Positions 25,100 to 33,441 of a stretch of 64,000 nt of DNA are shown here, in pieces. Position 1 is the first letter of the stretch, and each line of letters opens with the position of its first letter. The stretch lies in the NCBI GenBank assembly GCA_001770015.1, contig MEQB01000026.1:1-64000 (forward strand). Direction: 5' to 3'. This DNA comes from Bdellovibrionales bacterium RIFOXYC1_FULL_37_79 (GTDB lineage Bacteria; Bdellovibrionota; Bacteriovoracia; Bacteriovoracales; Bacteriovoracaceae). The notes beneath the pieces are model-generated. The model did not search any database. It was not told the DNA's origin and was given only the letters and a program-made list of their open reading frames with translations. The translations under genes were made by a program, and so were the position numbers.

Positions 25100-27082
25100 A
25101 TGATGATACAGTTAAGCCCAGCTGAACAAGAAACTATTTATGGCCTTGCGGAAAAAATTCTTGGCATCAGCCAAAAAGGTAAATTTAGAAAAAACATTTT
25201 GGTTAGAAATATTGAACTGCGAATTTCCCAAACCAAGAAAAAAAACCTTTCAGAATATTTGAATCTGGTCAATAGCGATAAAATGGAATACTGTCATTTT
25301 GTTTCTGCGCTTACCATCCATACGACCAACTGGTTTCGCGAACCACCTCATTTCGTTGAATTGGAAAAATACCTCAAAAGAAATATGTCCAAGTTGATAT
25401 CCAGGCCATTTGTCATCCTGTCCGCCGCTTGTTCCACCGGCGAGGAAAGTTTTTCGCTTGGACTTTTGATGGAAAAAATTAAAAGGGAACATCCCGAATT
25501 TGATTATCGGCTAATCGCCAACGATATTGATCCGGTCAGTGTCTCGCATGCCAAGCGCTCACTTTTTCCCAAAGCCGAAGTGTCCTCCATTCCCAAACAA
25601 TATCACCCCGATATCCTGATTGGAAAAAACCAATTCGAAGATTTTTTTACAGTTGCAAAAAATATCCGTGAACGCATCACCTTTACCAACGAAAATATTC
25701 TTCATCTCAATTTAGATCCGGCAGTTAAATTTGATATCATTTTCTGTAGAAACGTGCTCATTTATTTTGAATTCGAGAATATTCAAAAAATAGTCAACGT
25801 ATTTATAAGCCGACTTCAACCAAACGGCATTTTGTGTTTAGGCCATAGCGAGGCCCTCAATTCACCCGAAACTTTTGGACTCAAACTGACCTGGAATAGC
25901 AGCTATATTGTGGCCAAAAGTAATGATGATGCCAAAAATAAAGAAAGAAAACTCAATCCGCCCTCCACCTCCGAGGCGTTACATGAATCTTTAAAGGAGG
26001 ATGCCAATAAGTATGACACTTTGGCCAATGAAAACACTTCTTCCTCGTCCCTCCCGTCGAAGGAAACCAAACCCAAAACCATTTTAGTGGTGGATGATTC
26101 CATCACCGTCCGAAAAGTTTTGGAAAAACTCTACCAGCAACACGGTTTTAAAGTTCTCCTCGCCCAGGACGCCAAACAAGCAAACGTTTTATTGACCACA
26201 TATTTGAAAGATATTTCCTTGATCTCCCTTGATTTACATATGCCCGAAATTTCCGGCCAGGAATGGTTATCTCAAATACGCAGTCGGGGTATCACCATTC
26301 CGGTGATTGTCATCACCGATGCCCACTCTGACGAAGCCTTTGAAGTTTTGGGTGCCTTGGAACGGGGAGCACAGGATTATCTCAACAAATCCGAATTGCA
26401 TCAGGATGCCAACCTGGCGGTTGAAAAAGTCAAGGCCATCATTGAATCCCATGAAGAAGGCGACCCATTACGCCAGTCCCCTTCTCACAAAGTCACCGGT
26501 CGCCAAACTCTTTTTCGCCCGGATGTTATTTTAATTGGGGCCAGTACCGGAGGCCCTGAGGCCCTTACCAAGTTGCTGGAAAACTTTAATCATAATTCCC
26601 CCCCCATTTTAATCGTTCAGCATATTGCGCCCAGTTTTGCAGATGCCTTTTATAAAAGACTTTGCAAAGTTTCCACCCTGTCCCCTGAAAATATCGCCGA
26701 TGGTATTCCCCTAAAGCCTGGCCATCTTTATGCAGCCACCCAAGATTTTCATATCGGAGTGGCCAAAAACAAAAACAGCTACACCTTAATAACCGACAAG
26801 TGTGATCCCATAAATCGACATCGCCCAAGCGTTGATTACCTTTACAAAACCTGCACCGGTTTTGCTGACAGGGTTGCCGGGATCCTGCTGACAGGCATGG
26901 GTGCCGACGGAGCTGAAGGGCTTTCACAACTACGATGCAAAGGAGCGATTACCTTTGTGCAAAATGAAAATTCCTGCGTGGTTTTTGGAATGCCCAAAGA
27001 AGCGATCAAGCGTAATGCACATGGATTCGTGGGGGATCTTACTCAGATAAGAAACCAAATGAACCTTTTTATAAAATTGTAA
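25100..27082 (+). CDS. CheR - receiver - CheB fusion protein
   Basis: This 660-aa chemotaxis adaptation enzyme has three parts. Residues 1-275 are a CheR methyltransferase (LSAACSTGEESFSLG SAM loop, NDIDPVSVSHAKR, FCRNVLIYF). After a linker, residues 325-445 are a receiver (VVDDS, phosphoacceptor in LDLHMPE, lysine in YLNKSE). Residues 474-660 are a CheB methylesterase with the triad serine in GASTGG, histidine in VQHIAPS and aspartate in GMGADGA. It would both add and remove receptor methyl groups. It opens a plus-strand cluster with cheA 85 nt downstream and cheW. Two adjacent ATGs (25100 and 25103) are possible starts. Confidence 0.94.
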   Translation: MMIQLSPAEQETIYGLAEKILGISQKGKFRKNILVRNIELRISQTKKKNLSEYLNLVNSDKMEYCHFVSALTIHTTNWFREPPHFVELEKYLKRNMSKLISRPFVILSAACSTGEESFSLGLLMEKIKREHPEFDYRLIANDIDPVSVSHAKRSLFPKAEVSSIPKQYHPDILIGKNQFEDFFTVAKNIRERITFTNENILHLNLDPAVKFDIIFCRNVLIYFEFENIQKIVNVFISRLQPNGILCLGHSEALNSPETFGLKLTWNSSYIVAKSNDDAKNKERKLNPPSTSEALHESLKEDANKYDTLANENTSSSSLPSKETKPKTILVVDDSITVRKVLEKLYQQHGFKVLLAQDAKQANVLLTTYLKDISLISLDLHMPEISGQEWLSQIRSRGITIPVIVITDAHSDEAFEVLGALERGAQDYLNKSELHQDANLAVEKVKAIIESHEEGDPLRQSPSHKVTGRQTLFRPDVILIGASTGGPEALTKLLENFNHNSPPILIVQHIAPSFADAFYKRLCKVSTLSPENIADGIPLKPGHLYAATQDFHIGVAKNKNSYTLITDKCDPINRHRPSVDYLYKTCTGFADRVAGILLTGMGADGAEGLSQLRCKGAITFVQNENSCVVFGMPKEAIKRNAHGFVGDLTQIRNQMNLFIKL

Positions 27083-27167: not shown

Positions 27168-28982
27168 ATGATTGATCCTGAAATAGTGGCGATTTTTTTG
27201 GAAGAGGCCACCGACATATTACATAATTGGGAAAAAGAATGTCTGACACTTGAGAAAAATATAGACCACCCCGATTTTAATGGTCTGTTCCGCTGTGCCC
27301 ATAATATCAAAGGATCGGCTAAATCGGTAGGGCTGGAAAGCCTGGGACAGTTTGTCCACGAAGTCGAAGATGTTATTAATTTACTCCGTAATGGTGAAAT
27401 CAAACTTATCCCTAAAATCCTGGAGTTTTTATTAGACGCCCAGGCTTTACTTGCCAAATGGGTAGAGGAATTAAATAAAGACGTCAACTATGTGCCCAAT
27501 ACAAAATCCCATTCCATGAAAGCCGTGGCCATCAAGGATTTTGCCAAGAAAAAAACCGGTGAAGCTTCTCAAATCATTTCCAAAGATTTCGGAACCATTG
27601 CCGTAGAGGTAGGGATTGAACAGCACCAAGTGGAAAAGGCCATTAAACTACAGAATCGAAAAATCGGCGAGATCATGGTTGATGAAGGCATCATCAGTGA
27701 GAAAGAAAAAATCGAAATATTAGAAAAACAGAAAATCATGCAAAAGAAAGCAGGCGTGCAAAAAACTGATGAGAGTATCAGGATTTCTGCCAATAAAATT
27801 GACCGTCTCATCCAATTGATTGGAGAACTCTCGATTCAACAATCCATCATCACCCACGCCAAAAAAAACAAATCCCTTGATTCACCCGCCTGCGGCAATG
27901 CCATTTCGCTGGCCAGTAAGATCAATAGTGAAATCCAAACCAATGCGCTTTCCCTTCGTATGCTTCCCATTGAAGGATTGTTTCAACGACTAGAACGGAT
28001 CATCCGGGATCTGGCACGCTCTTTAAAAAAACAGGTCGAAATCGAAATCGAAGGAAGCAATGTTGAACTGGATAAAACCATCATTGAAAAAGTAACCGAT
28101 CCGCTTATTCATATCGTCAGAAATGCCATCGACCATGGCGTGGAATCCACCCAGGAAAGAGTCAAGCAACAAAAAAATCCCACGGCTTTAGTGAGAATCG
28201 CAGCTATCCAGGACGCCACCGGAGTCGTATTAATTATTGAAGACGATGGAAAAGGACTTGATCGAGAAAAAATCAAAAAAAAGGCCATCGAAGAAGGACT
28301 CATCAAAGCAGAAGCTCATCTTTCTGACAAGGAATTAAATCTGCTTATTTTAGAGCCTGGTTTTTCTACCGCCGATAAAATTACCGATCTTTCCGGCAGA
28401 GGGGTCGGCATGGATGTGGTTAAAAGAACGCTGGATTCAGTAGGAGGTTCCATTGATATTTTTACTGAAAAATTTAAAGGTACCACCTTCTCTATAAGCC
28501 TTCCCACCTCCCTGTCCATCATTGATGCATTAGTGGTTATGGTTAAAGGGCAACGATACATCATACCACTTTTGGAATTATCTGAAGTGCTCGATTTGAA
28601 TTCATATAATTTGGAAAGAACCTCTACGGGTGAAACCATGTTCAACTTAAGGGGCAAAGTGGTGCCGGTCCAAAAACTTGCCGACTATTTCCCCCACCCA
28701 GGCATCACCGGTGTTTTGGATGAACACGACGATCCAAACAGCAAAAATAATGATAATTTTGTCCGACCGGCACTGATTATCGAAATGAACCAAAGTAAAG
28801 TTGCTTTTGAAATCGATAAAATCGTCAGCCAGCAGCAAGTGGTGGTCAAACCCTTGAATGACAAACTCTCCACCTTGCCTGGTTATTGCGGAGGCAGCAT
28901 CATGGCCGATGGCGAAGCTGGCATGATCGTTACCCTCAGATATTTGGCCCAAAAATATTTTGAGAAATATTCAAACAATTAA
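27168..28982 (+). CDS. cheA: Chemotaxis histidine kinase CheA
   Basis: This 604-aa CheA has an N-terminal HPt domain with His45 in FRCAHNIKGSAKS. A linker segment (about 130-190, IGEIMVDEGIISEKEKIEIL) follows that resembles MshEN-type modules rather than a normal P2 domain. Next come the dimerisation helices, the ATPase (VRNAIDHGVE N box, EDDGKGLD G1, GRGVGMDVV G2) and a C-terminal CheW-like domain (about 460-600). It phosphorylates the receiver of the upstream CheR-REC-CheB fusion and presumably an unlinked CheY. CheW begins 15 nt downstream. The lack of an ordinary P2 is a family variation. Confidence 0.95.
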   Translation: MIDPEIVAIFLEEATDILHNWEKECLTLEKNIDHPDFNGLFRCAHNIKGSAKSVGLESLGQFVHEVEDVINLLRNGEIKLIPKILEFLLDAQALLAKWVEELNKDVNYVPNTKSHSMKAVAIKDFAKKKTGEASQIISKDFGTIAVEVGIEQHQVEKAIKLQNRKIGEIMVDEGIISEKEKIEILEKQKIMQKKAGVQKTDESIRISANKIDRLIQLIGELSIQQSIITHAKKNKSLDSPACGNAISLASKINSEIQTNALSLRMLPIEGLFQRLERIIRDLARSLKKQVEIEIEGSNVELDKTIIEKVTDPLIHIVRNAIDHGVESTQERVKQQKNPTALVRIAAIQDATGVVLIIEDDGKGLDREKIKKKAIEEGLIKAEAHLSDKELNLLILEPGFSTADKITDLSGRGVGMDVVKRTLDSVGGSIDIFTEKFKGTTFSISLPTSLSIIDALVVMVKGQRYIIPLLELSEVLDLNSYNLERTSTGETMFNLRGKVVPVQKLADYFPHPGITGVLDEHDDPNSKNNDNFVRPALIIEMNQSKVAFEIDKIVSQQQVVVKPLNDKLSTLPGYCGGSIMADGEAGMIVTLRYLAQKYFEKYSNN

Positions 28983-28997
28983 AAAAGGAATTTTGAC

Positions 28998-29519
28998 GTG
29001 AATACTACCAATAATGAAGTTACCCCTAAAACTCCCGATACCAAACCAAGTACCGCCAAGGACGAAAATGATAACAAGTACCTGCTTTTTTCCATCGGCA
29101 AGGAGATTTTTGGAGTGCCACTGATGGGTGTACGCGAAGTGACCGAGCCTCAAAAAGTAAAACCTATCGCCAATACCTCCAAGCATTTTTTGGGAGTTAT
29201 TAATATTCGTGGAGAAATTATCGGTGTTATTGATTTAAGAATCAGACTCAGCCACCCCGCCGAAAAAACCCCTTTCATGGCCATGATCATTTTTGAAACC
29301 GCCGTAGGCCCCATGGCTGCCCTGGTGGATAAGGTTGAATCAGTATCAATTATTGAAGAAAAAAATATTGACCGCAACCCCAATATCTCATCAGATTTCC
29401 CTCAAAAATATTTAATGGGAATTGGAAAACTCAATGATGATTTGATCACTTTGATCAATCTTAATGATGTACTCGGTGTGGAAACCTTAAACAGTTTCCG
29501 TACCACCAAAATGGGCTAA
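28998..29519 (+). CDS. cheW: Coupling protein CheW
   Basis: This 173-aa protein is a single CheW domain (about 28-165), with the conserved LLFSIGKEIFGVPLMGVREV start, the IRGEIIGVIDLR segment and the ALVDKVESV region. It links chemoreceptors to CheA. A polar N-terminal extension of about 25 residues (TTNNEVTPKTPDTK) is longer than usual. The GTG start at 28998 follows AAAAGGAAT, 15 nt after the cheA stop. The next gene, encoding the chemoreceptor-like hybrid, starts 26 nt downstream. Confidence 0.94.
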   Translation: MNTTNNEVTPKTPDTKPSTAKDENDNKYLLFSIGKEIFGVPLMGVREVTEPQKVKPIANTSKHFLGVINIRGEIIGVIDLRIRLSHPAEKTPFMAMIIFETAVGPMAALVDKVESVSIIEEKNIDRNPNISSDFPQKYLMGIGKLNDDLITLINLNDVLGVETLNSFRTTKMG

Positions 29520-29545
29520 GATTAACTCTTTACAAGGATGAATAT

Positions 29546-30184
29546 GTGAATATTGCAATCGTCGGTGGTGGAAAGGCTTCAGAAATAATGATCAACCATT
29601 TTTCAAAAGAAAAGGATCTGCACGTTGTGGGCATTTGTGATCTGTCTGAAACAGCTCCAGGAATCATGAAGGCCAAAAAACTGGGCATTCCCACCTACAA
29701 GGATATGAAAGAAATGGTGACCCGATCCAATGTTAACCTGGTGGTGGAATTAACCGGTAATGAAAAAGTCAGACAAATGTGTCTGGGACTGCTTAGAAAT
29801 GATCAGGACATCATGTCCGCCGGTGGTGGCCGCTTGATGTGCACGATTTTAGACGCCATCACCCACAATACCCTCCGGATTGCAGACGAATTACATAATC
29901 TGACCGAACAGATGGTCAATGCCATGGACATTGTAGATAAGACGGTCATTAACATCAAATCCATCCTGATCAAAATTCAAATGATTGCCATTAACGGCAA
30001 CATCGAGGCCTGTAAGGCAGGAAAAAATGGGGCAGCTTTTGCGGTGGTTGCCCAACACCTCGGCGAACTGGTAAATGAAGTTGATTCTGCCGTTGAACAA
30101 ATTGTTAATTCCTCCTCAGAAGGTCACAGTGTCTTAAATGCCCTCAAAACTACTGAAAAAAATCTTCGTGAGGAAGTACAATAA
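29546..30184 (+). CDS. Rossmann-domain / chemoreceptor signalling-hairpin hybrid
   Basis: This 212-aa soluble protein has an N-terminal NAD(P)-type Rossmann unit (residues 1-100: IAIVGGGKASE loop, GICD at the second strand end, VELTGN). It runs into a helical hairpin (about 105-208) whose tip, IQMIAINGNIEACKAGKNGAAFAVVAQ, matches the chemoreceptor (MCP) CheA/CheW-contact region. No membrane helix and no conventional ligand domain exist. Each hairpin arm is only about 45 residues, far shorter than in ordinary receptors. It sits directly after cheA-cheW and 12 nt before the protease gene, and is the only receptor-like gene in the cluster. It probably senses a dinucleotide or metabolite and feeds CheA. 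The GTG start follows AAGGATG. Confidence 0.82.
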   Translation: MNIAIVGGGKASEIMINHFSKEKDLHVVGICDLSETAPGIMKAKKLGIPTYKDMKEMVTRSNVNLVVELTGNEKVRQMCLGLLRNDQDIMSAGGGRLMCTILDAITHNTLRIADELHNLTEQMVNAMDIVDKTVINIKSILIKIQMIAINGNIEACKAGKNGAAFAVVAQHLGELVNEVDSAVEQIVNSSSEGHSVLNALKTTEKNLREEVQ

Positions 30185-30195
30185 AAAATTGTCCC

Positions 30196-31485
30196 GTGCA
30201 AAATACATATTTTTTCATGTTACTGGTCTTTTTGATAAGCACCGGTAGTTGGGCGAAAAGTGAACAGGCCTTGTTCAACCAGGTCAGTCCGGCCATTTTT
30301 CAAATTAAAACCTCCACTGACGAAGCCTCCTCCAAGGCGTCCTATGGCAGCGGATTTGCGATTGAGAAAACTGGCCTGTTGATCACCAACTATCACGTCA
30401 TCGCCACCTCTTTACAGGAAGAGGAGCAAAAATATAATATCTACGTTTTAGTCGATGAAAAACCCATCCCGGCCCAGATTGTGGCAGTGGATATCATCCA
30501 TGATCTGGCCTTGTTAAAAATCGACTATACGTTTAAAAGGACGCTCAAACTAACCAAAAAAATTCCCTTAACAGGAGAAACCATTTTTTCCCTAGGCCTT
30601 CCTAAAGATTTAAAACTGTCTTTAATCAAAGGCACCTTCAATGGAATTTTAAAACACACTCGCTATGAACGAATTCTCATGTCAAGTCCCATTAATGCGG
30701 GCATGAGTGGCGGACCTACCCTCAACACCAAATCCGAAGTCATTGGGGTCAACGTTTCGGTTTTAAGACAGTCTCAAAATATTTCTTTTTGTGTCCCCAT
30801 CAAACATGTTTACGATCTGATCGATGCCTATAAGAAAAACACCTTCAATAATCTTAAAGACAAGATTCACCTTTTTTTACAGGCCCAGTTAATTGAAATT
30901 CAACAAACTCTGATCGAAGACATGCAAAAAAACAAAGGAGAAAATTCCAAGCTGGATAATTGGACATTTGCCCCTCCCTCCACTTCTTTAAAGTGTTGGT
31001 CAAAAAATGAAAAAGAAAAAAACAAAACTTATGAATACAAACAACAAACCTGCCATCTACCGGCCGATGCCTATATAAGTGATACACTCTCCAGCGGTTC
31101 CTATAATCTCAATTTCATCTCAATCAACAATTTAAAGCGGACCAAAATCCAATTCTATAACGTGCTAGAATCCTCCTATAACGCAACCACCTACGATTTC
31201 CGGGATGAATTTTCATTTATCACCAACAAGGAAGTCATTTCAAGATATTCGTGTGATAACCAAATCATCGTCAACCAGAACAACATCCCTTTCAAAATTA
31301 ATTTTTGTATGAATACTTATATCAGGTACACCGGTTTGTATAATATCATCGTCAAAGGAGTCAGCCTCTTAAAAGGTAATGAGGCATTCTTTTTCGCATT
31401 TAGCATGCAAGGTTTCTCCCAGACCAATATTGAAAAATTCATTCGCCATCAACTGGATCATATTAATTTTGAGGGTAAGCGATGA
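30196..31485 (+). CDS. Exported trypsin-like serine protease
   Basis: This 429-aa protein has a signal peptide (about 1-20, ending SWAKS) and a trypsin-like domain at 25-215. Histidine is in LLITNYHVIAT, aspartate in DIIHDLALLKID and serine in NAGMSGGPT, the DegP/HtrA-like triad. No PDZ domain is evident. The C-terminal half (about 230-429) is Cys-containing and unrecognised. It probably acts in the periplasm or outside the cell. The GTG start lies 12 nt after the Rossmann/MCP gene, and the stop overlaps the FHA gene by 4 nt, so it is translationally tied to the signalling cluster. Confidence 0.88.
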   Translation: MQNTYFFMLLVFLISTGSWAKSEQALFNQVSPAIFQIKTSTDEASSKASYGSGFAIEKTGLLITNYHVIATSLQEEEQKYNIYVLVDEKPIPAQIVAVDIIHDLALLKIDYTFKRTLKLTKKIPLTGETIFSLGLPKDLKLSLIKGTFNGILKHTRYERILMSSPINAGMSGGPTLNTKSEVIGVNVSVLRQSQNISFCVPIKHVYDLIDAYKKNTFNNLKDKIHLFLQAQLIEIQQTLIEDMQKNKGENSKLDNWTFAPPSTSLKCWSKNEKEKNKTYEYKQQTCHLPADAYISDTLSSGSYNLNFISINNLKRTKIQFYNVLESSYNATTYDFRDEFSFITNKEVISRYSCDNQIIVNQNNIPFKINFCMNTYIRYTGLYNIIVKGVSLLKGNEAFFFAFSMQGFSQTNIEKFIRHQLDHINFEGKR

Positions 31486-32586: not shown

Positions 32587-33441
32587 ATGAGTAATGCAAA
32601 AAATAACAATCGCCTTAAGCGCCTGCGGAGTCCCCTTAGTTTTCTAAGAGATGGCCATCACAAAAATGCTTCAGGGATTTATAATCTCGGTTATGACTAC
32701 AATCAGGAAATTCTAATCAATAAGAACATCAACATAGTATTCCAGCCTATTGTTGATTTGTCTTCCCACAATTTTCACGCTTTTGAAGCATTGTCAAGGC
32801 CTGCGATTGATGCCCCCTTGGCCAACAAATCACCTTTTGCCATTATCAGTGAAAAAAACCACCAAAAACTGGATCTTATTTGTTTGGACCATATATTCAA
32901 ATCCATTGAACAATTTTCACACTTTGATGAACTCAATCATCAAAGAACATTTTTTTTCGTCAACTGCTTACTATCCAACTCCAATTATCTAAAAAAAATG
33001 CAAATTTCCCAATCGCTCAAAGAAAAGACCACCATCGAATTTGATCTAAATCATACATTTTTTGATATCAATCAATTTCTAAAAAATATTCAGGATCTAA
33101 AAAAAGATCACTTTAAAATTGCCATGGATGACATTGGCGAAACCAAAATTGATTTACAAATTCTTAATTTGATAAAACCGGACTTCGTCAAAATGGATAT
33201 CTCCGTCGTACTGGGCATTTCTCAAAGCAATGATAAACTGAAACAGGCCAAATCAATTATTGAAAGGGCCAATCAACTGGGAGCAAAAATTATCGCAGAA
33301 GGTGTGGAAAACAAGGAAGACCTGGATGTTATCACCTCTTTGGGGGTTAAACTCATCCAAGGATTTCTTTTCTCCAAACCCATGCAATTTGTTCCTGAAA
33401 GAAGAAAAGAAATCGATAATATTATCAAAAAAGCAGCTTAA
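32587..33441 (+). CDS. EAL-domain protein (c-di-GMP phosphodiesterase-like)
   Basis: This 284-aa protein is a lone EAL domain (about 45-275). Motifs seen are FQPIVDL, the signature FEALSRP, an acidic strand FDLNHTF, MDDIGET in place of the usual DDFGTG, VKMDIS, IAEGVE and QGFLFSKP. The EAL glutamate and the KxD and EGVE residues persist. The DDFG loop is altered, so activity is possible but not assured; it may be a c-di-GMP binder. The ATG at 32587 is 110 nt after the FHA gene, so it may have its own promoter. Its stop adjoins the stop of the convergent ferritin-like gene. Confidence 0.88.
   Translation: MSNAKNNNRLKRLRSPLSFLRDGHHKNASGIYNLGYDYNQEILINKNINIVFQPIVDLSSHNFHAFEALSRPAIDAPLANKSPFAIISEKNHQKLDLICLDHIFKSIEQFSHFDELNHQRTFFFVNCLLSNSNYLKKMQISQSLKEKTTIEFDLNHTFFDINQFLKNIQDLKKDHFKIAMDDIGETKIDLQILNLIKPDFVKMDISVVLGISQSNDKLKQAKSIIERANQLGAKIIAEGVENKEDLDVITSLGVKLIQGFLFSKPMQFVPERRKEIDNIIKKAA

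Follow-up and report, generated by a model that had tools for sequence, protein, structure and literature searches.

We analysed a 64,000-nucleotide stretch (the window) of contig MEQB01000026.1 from Bdellovibrionales bacterium RIFOXYC1_FULL_37_79, in which a chemotaxis-type operon carries a gene for a 212-aa protein with an N-terminal Rossmann domain and, directly after it, a short MCP hairpin. The genes of this region and the parts of the 212-aa protein are as follows:

25100-27082, + strand: cheR-receiver-cheB fusion, 660 aa (Pfam CheR, Response_reg, CheB_methylest)
27168-28982, + strand: cheA, 604 aa (Pfam Hpt, dimerisation, ATPase and CheW-like domains)
28998-29519, + strand: cheW, 173 aa (Pfam CheW, E 2.3e-27), stopping 26 bp before the Rossmann-MCP gene
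29546-30184, + strand: Rossmann-MCP hairpin gene, 212 aa, GTG start at 29546 and stop codon at 30182-30184
29546-29857, + strand: Rossmann domain, residues 1-104 (Pfam, alignments, PDB profile match, purifying selection)
29858-29989, + strand: descending hairpin arm, residues 105-148 (period 3.5; MCPsignal from residue 112)
29990-30055, + strand: MCP tip, residues 149-170 (Pfam, PDB matches, comparison with 61 tips)
30056-30181, + strand: ascending hairpin arm, residues 171-212 (period 3.45 over residues 165-208)
30196-31485, + strand: Trypsin-2/HtrA-like protease (Pfam Trypsin_2, E 2e-21), beginning 11 bp after the Rossmann-MCP gene

The first-pass annotation had placed the gene inside a che operon; the coordinates and frame that it gave hold, and cheRB, cheA and cheW do precede it. 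A ribosome-binding-like AAGGA at 29534-29538 lies upstream of the GTG start, which is also kept in the sister MAG RIFOXYA1_FULL_36_14, where the gene order is identical and the Rossmann part is 95% identical up to the contig end. An FHA gene and then an EAL gene can be found downstream of the protease gene. From cheA to the FHA gene, the + strand showed no terminator-like site, and the protease gene is probably on the same transcript as the Rossmann-MCP gene. Residues 150-188 of CheA include a weak stretch resembling the c-di-GMP motif of MshEN (NCBIfam, 26.6 bits, cut-off 38); together with the EAL gene at 32587-33441, this raises the possibility of a c-di-GMP link.

The Rossmann unit that had been proposed for residues 1-100 was recovered by two Pfam families, GFO_IDH_MocA (residues 1-89, 32.2 bits) and NAD_binding_3 (residues 22-92, 27.6 bits). 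Both exceed the cut-off of 24, which by that criterion places the domain with the NAD-binding Rossmann folds of Gfo/Idh/MocA-type or aspartate/acetaldehyde dehydrogenase enzymes. In alignments of five to six relatives, the G7-x-G9 of the Rossmann loop is present, and T70-G71 and D32, the latter where the second strand ends, are invariant; in the GxGxxG loop, S12 takes the third glycine position, which most relatives fill with glycine. A profile built from five such domains matches the cofactor domain of an acylating acetaldehyde dehydrogenase in the PDB (4lrs, E 2.9e-8). The dehydrogenase-type match stops near residue 103, beyond which the MCP hairpin takes the place of a C-terminal catalytic domain. 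Judged by these residues, the GxG loop and the invariant aspartate after strand 2 fit NAD-type binding. They therefore speak against a rival reading, to which we would give roughly one chance in five, in which the protein is a real receptor whose Rossmann ligand is not a dinucleotide but a CoA ester, a metabolite of the amino-acid or nucleotide kind, or a protein partner, for example a dehydrogenase. The nearest solved relatives favour that reading in part, as the Rossmann site of acylating acetaldehyde dehydrogenases accepts both NAD and CoA, and CoA_binding is a weak Pfam match in the same protein. It is also favoured by the surroundings of two relatives from another class of the phylum, one of which adjoins a molybdopterin oxidoreductase operon and the other a TRAP dicarboxylate transporter; with neighbours that differ in this way, the signals may differ between members of the family.

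Comparison of the Rossmann part with its 95%-identical sister gave 49 synonymous and five nonsynonymous differences over 104 codons. This part is under strong purifying selection, with dN/dS of about 0.010 against 0.024 for CheW by the same measure, synonymous changes being near saturation. The comparison covers the Rossmann part only, as the sister contig ends before the hairpin half.

The C-terminal half had been described as an MCP-type hairpin over residues 105-208, and the annotation had taken the absence of a significant MCPsignal match as the result that would count against it. That result did not arise: MCPsignal (PF00015) matches residues 112-188 with E 9.2e-8 and 32.5 bits against a curated cut-off of 34.6, spanning profile positions 10-93 of 172, and the five other family members all pass the cut-off, two of them narrowly. 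Solved MCP tips are also matched (4jpb, E 9.7e-7; 3ur1, E 1.3e-6; 3g67, E 1.1e-5), and hydrophobic residues recur with a period of 3.50 over residues 104-148 (permutation p 0.006) and 3.45 over residues 165-208 (permutation p 0.0002), a repeat that the same test does not find in the Rossmann part. The Pfam matches, the PDB tip matches and the heptad periodicity rule out chance similarity. The tip retains the core residues N150, E154, A155, A158, G159, G162, F165, V167, V168 and A169, and differs at about 10 positions from the consensus of 61 canonical tips from the phylum, among them the otherwise near-invariant positions 147, 156, 163, 164 and 171. Docking could be weak, since the MCPsignal score lies 2 bits under the cut-off and near-invariant tip residues are altered.

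The arms are, as had been claimed, far shorter than those of ordinary receptors: about 45 residues before the tip motif (from 105) and 57 after it, or roughly 6-8 heptads, which falls below the 12 or more of the established receptor classes (24H and longer) and is too short for methylation (adaptation) helices. The methylation consensus was found in none of the six members, as against 34 of the 53 ordinary MCPs fetched; such sites are not universal among MCPs, and receptors accepted as such without them exist. The 212-aa protein is devoid of membrane helices, as the first-pass annotation had held, and likewise of a HAMP domain and a methylation motif. AlphaFold2, run without an alignment, returned a low-confidence model (mean pLDDT 48) with alternating strands and helices followed by helices at 95-158 and 162-188 flanking a tip turn, an order that is consistent with a hairpin without proving it. 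CheR, receiver and CheB are joined in one protein (25100-27082), yet methylation sites are absent from the receptor that the operon itself encodes; the CheR and CheB of the operon must serve some other receptor.

Relatives were searched for across 369 genomes of the phylum. The same genome carries a paralogue of 226 aa with no che neighbours (L044:5185-5865), and the full Rossmann-MCP architecture recurs in three genomes of another class (G349, G350 and G355). Beyond the phylum, the clostridium Acetoanaerobium noterae has a relative of 260 aa in which both domains score above cut-off. The paralogue, the relatives in the other class and the one in Clostridia rule out a fusion unique to one gene. 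The A. noterae replicon, L136 (NZ_CP154629.1), is 2.63 Mb long and filed as a plasmid; it is chromosome-sized, carries housekeeping genes such as a tyrosyl-tRNA-synthetase-like ORF, and is probably mislabelled. No match to the family was found in phages and no relative in viral contigs. A tree of the Rossmann domains gave no supported branch and is compatible with a single fusion event as well as with several.

Other parts of kinase pathways carry the Rossmann module too. Thirteen genomes contain a match to the Rossmann profile at E 1e-6, three of which (G026, G201 and G289) have ordinary enzymes only. In G354 (L102:8440-9258), a CheW domain is joined to the same module in a protein whose gene stands directly ahead of cheA within a che cluster. 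In four genomes it is fused to histidine kinases (G023, G056, G062 with two, and G128; loci L046, L047, L048, L103 and L104), where it is the sole N-terminal input; similar N-terminal segments on some deltaproteobacterial sensor kinases had been mentioned in the first-pass annotation, and these fusions bear that remark out. Three of the five kinases adjoin a single-domain response regulator. Because the module occurs both on CheW beside cheA and on histidine kinases, an input module that controls kinases is its best reading, and its domain contexts suggest a portable, cytosolic input unit that serves both CheA and histidine-kinase signalling. These occurrences, in which the module replaces sensors on histidine kinases and is joined to CheW, fit an input role better than that of a bulk dimeriser and so weigh against a different reading, in which the protein would be a passive or inhibitory plug or scaffold on the receptor sites of CheA-CheW, with the Rossmann domain only dimerising or stabilising it and no ligand-dependent signalling. 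The constraint on the Rossmann part, at least as strong as that on CheW when near-saturated synonymous change is borne in mind, tells in the same direction. We regard such a plug as unlikely, though its case includes the several altered tip residues, the serine at the third glycine position, the sensorless nature of Tm14, whose tip is the closest solved one, and a 153-aa hairpin-only MCP-tip protein in G359 (L141:1423-1884), which has no sensor and is encoded a few bases before a CheA gene.

Within the operon, the gene stands where related operons encode a receptor. MCPs of about 680-724 aa lie directly 3' of related cheA-cheW pairs; they were seen as ORFs in G099, G101, G103 and G089, and judged from match positions in G076, G088, G090 and G104. 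Since at least seven relatives have a full-length MCP after cheA-cheW, the Rossmann hairpin occupies, by gene order, a receptor slot. A test of whether the hairpin derives from the same-slot MCPs gave p 0.05 in a biased sample. The synteny with cheA-cheW, whose constancy the first-pass annotation had proposed to survey, is not constant: the Rossmann-MCP gene is missing from the G023 operon, the closest outside the sister pair (CheA 57% identical), and the paralogue and most Rossmann-MCP relatives lie away from che genes. The absence in G023 and the divergent tip could also be expected of a gene that has degenerated or has only lately been fused and plays no part in signalling, such as what is left of a lost MCP; we consider this very improbable given the purifying selection on the Rossmann part, the intact heptad pattern, and the paralogue and relatives, likewise intact and with arms of similar length, in two phyla.

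The reading that we favour, by a little over even odds and from sequence comparisons, is that of a soluble, non-adapting minimal receptor that relays the state of a dinucleotide-like ligand to the neighbouring CheA-CheW pair. Two copies of the protein would pair via their hairpin arms, of about six heptads each, into a four-helix bundle, the tip of which would contact CheW and, in the adjacent CheA, the CheW-like domain (P5). The Rossmann domain would sit directly on the arm ends, in the place of the HAMP and sensor domains of ordinary receptors, and would take up a ligand from the cytosol, either NAD(H)-like or derived from CoA. Ligand occupancy would alter the packing of the arms and hence, in one direction or the other, CheA activity. 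As it has no methylation sites, the receptor would not adapt, and would serve instead as a gauge of steady metabolic or redox conditions. The first-pass annotation had proposed a cytosolic sensor that controls CheA; its Rossmann/MCP-tip protein in a cheA-cheW operon stands, with kinase input as the best reading, while the ligand and the control are our inference.

The putative docking to CheA and CheW is suggested by the operon position and by the similarity of the hairpin to the tip of Tm14 from Thermotoga maritima (PDB 3g67, 3ur1, 4jpb), a sensorless chemoreceptor analogue that is likewise soluble and without a membrane helix. The hairpin-only protein encoded before a CheA gene in G359 also counts in favour of the model. 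The Tm14 tip fragment, the best PDB match to the hairpin, has about 85-90 aa and was crystallised with CheA P4-P5 and CheW, so that the kinase pair can be bound by a hairpin as short as this; PMC6746300 lists 4JPB as a ternary complex in which a fragment of Tm14 is joined by CheA P4-P5 and CheW. Tm14 differs in its longer arms (213-aa chain) and in having no Rossmann domain. The length of the 212-aa protein matches no ordinary receptor class, and it would probably form a small complex of its own with the CheA-CheW pair. One heptad more or less suffices to keep a receptor of E. coli out of the main array, according to PMC7534058, and a receptor this short should accordingly form a separate complex, presumably in the cytosol.

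Cytosolic receptors and sensorless tips are already known kinds. In cytosolic MCPs of the PAS type the arms are full-length, with at least 12 heptads against about six here. Such proteins, including the 24H V. cholerae receptors VC1406 and VCA0864 (PMC7534058), likewise sense internal state without a membrane part, but differ from the 212-aa protein in their longer arms and in carrying PAS in place of the Rossmann domain. The Rossmann-histidine kinases of the same order have a homologous Rossmann domain as their only input, as here, with HisKA and HATPase as output instead of an MCP tip. The G354 fusion shares the module and a place in a che operon directly before cheA, and its output is the adaptor CheW rather than a receptor tip. 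The NAD/CoA domain of acylating acetaldehyde dehydrogenases (4lrs, 4jn6, 1nvm) and the Gfo/Idh/MocA enzymes show profile similarity across the Rossmann domain, and differ in possessing the catalytic domain that is absent here. The open-access literature, to which our search was confined, yielded no description of Rossmann or NAD-binding chemoreceptors, of a Rossmann domain on a minimal MCP tip, or of its CheW fusion. The pairing had been called unusual, which holds only in part, given its recurrence in two phyla and the paralogue in the same genome.

Chemotaxis-type pathways are thought to be tuned to energy and redox state mainly via PAS/FAD sensors and respiratory effects. Our findings suggest, tentatively and at somewhat less than even odds, that the Rossmann module could bring intracellular redox (dinucleotide) status into CheA-type signalling through fusions to a receptor tip, to CheW or to a histidine kinase, the tip form being non-adapting and shorter than every named length class. 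If true, a bare fold of the dinucleotide-binding type on a minimal tip would offer a direct and biochemically simple test case, as the whole signalling unit comprises 212 residues, is soluble and non-adapting, and has its partner genes adjacent. Such a minimal receptor could reveal how little receptor suffices to control CheA. For the bacterium itself, the 212-aa protein may put a chemotaxis-type switch under the influence of the cell's own metabolic state, with the products of the adjoining kinase genes as its probable targets.
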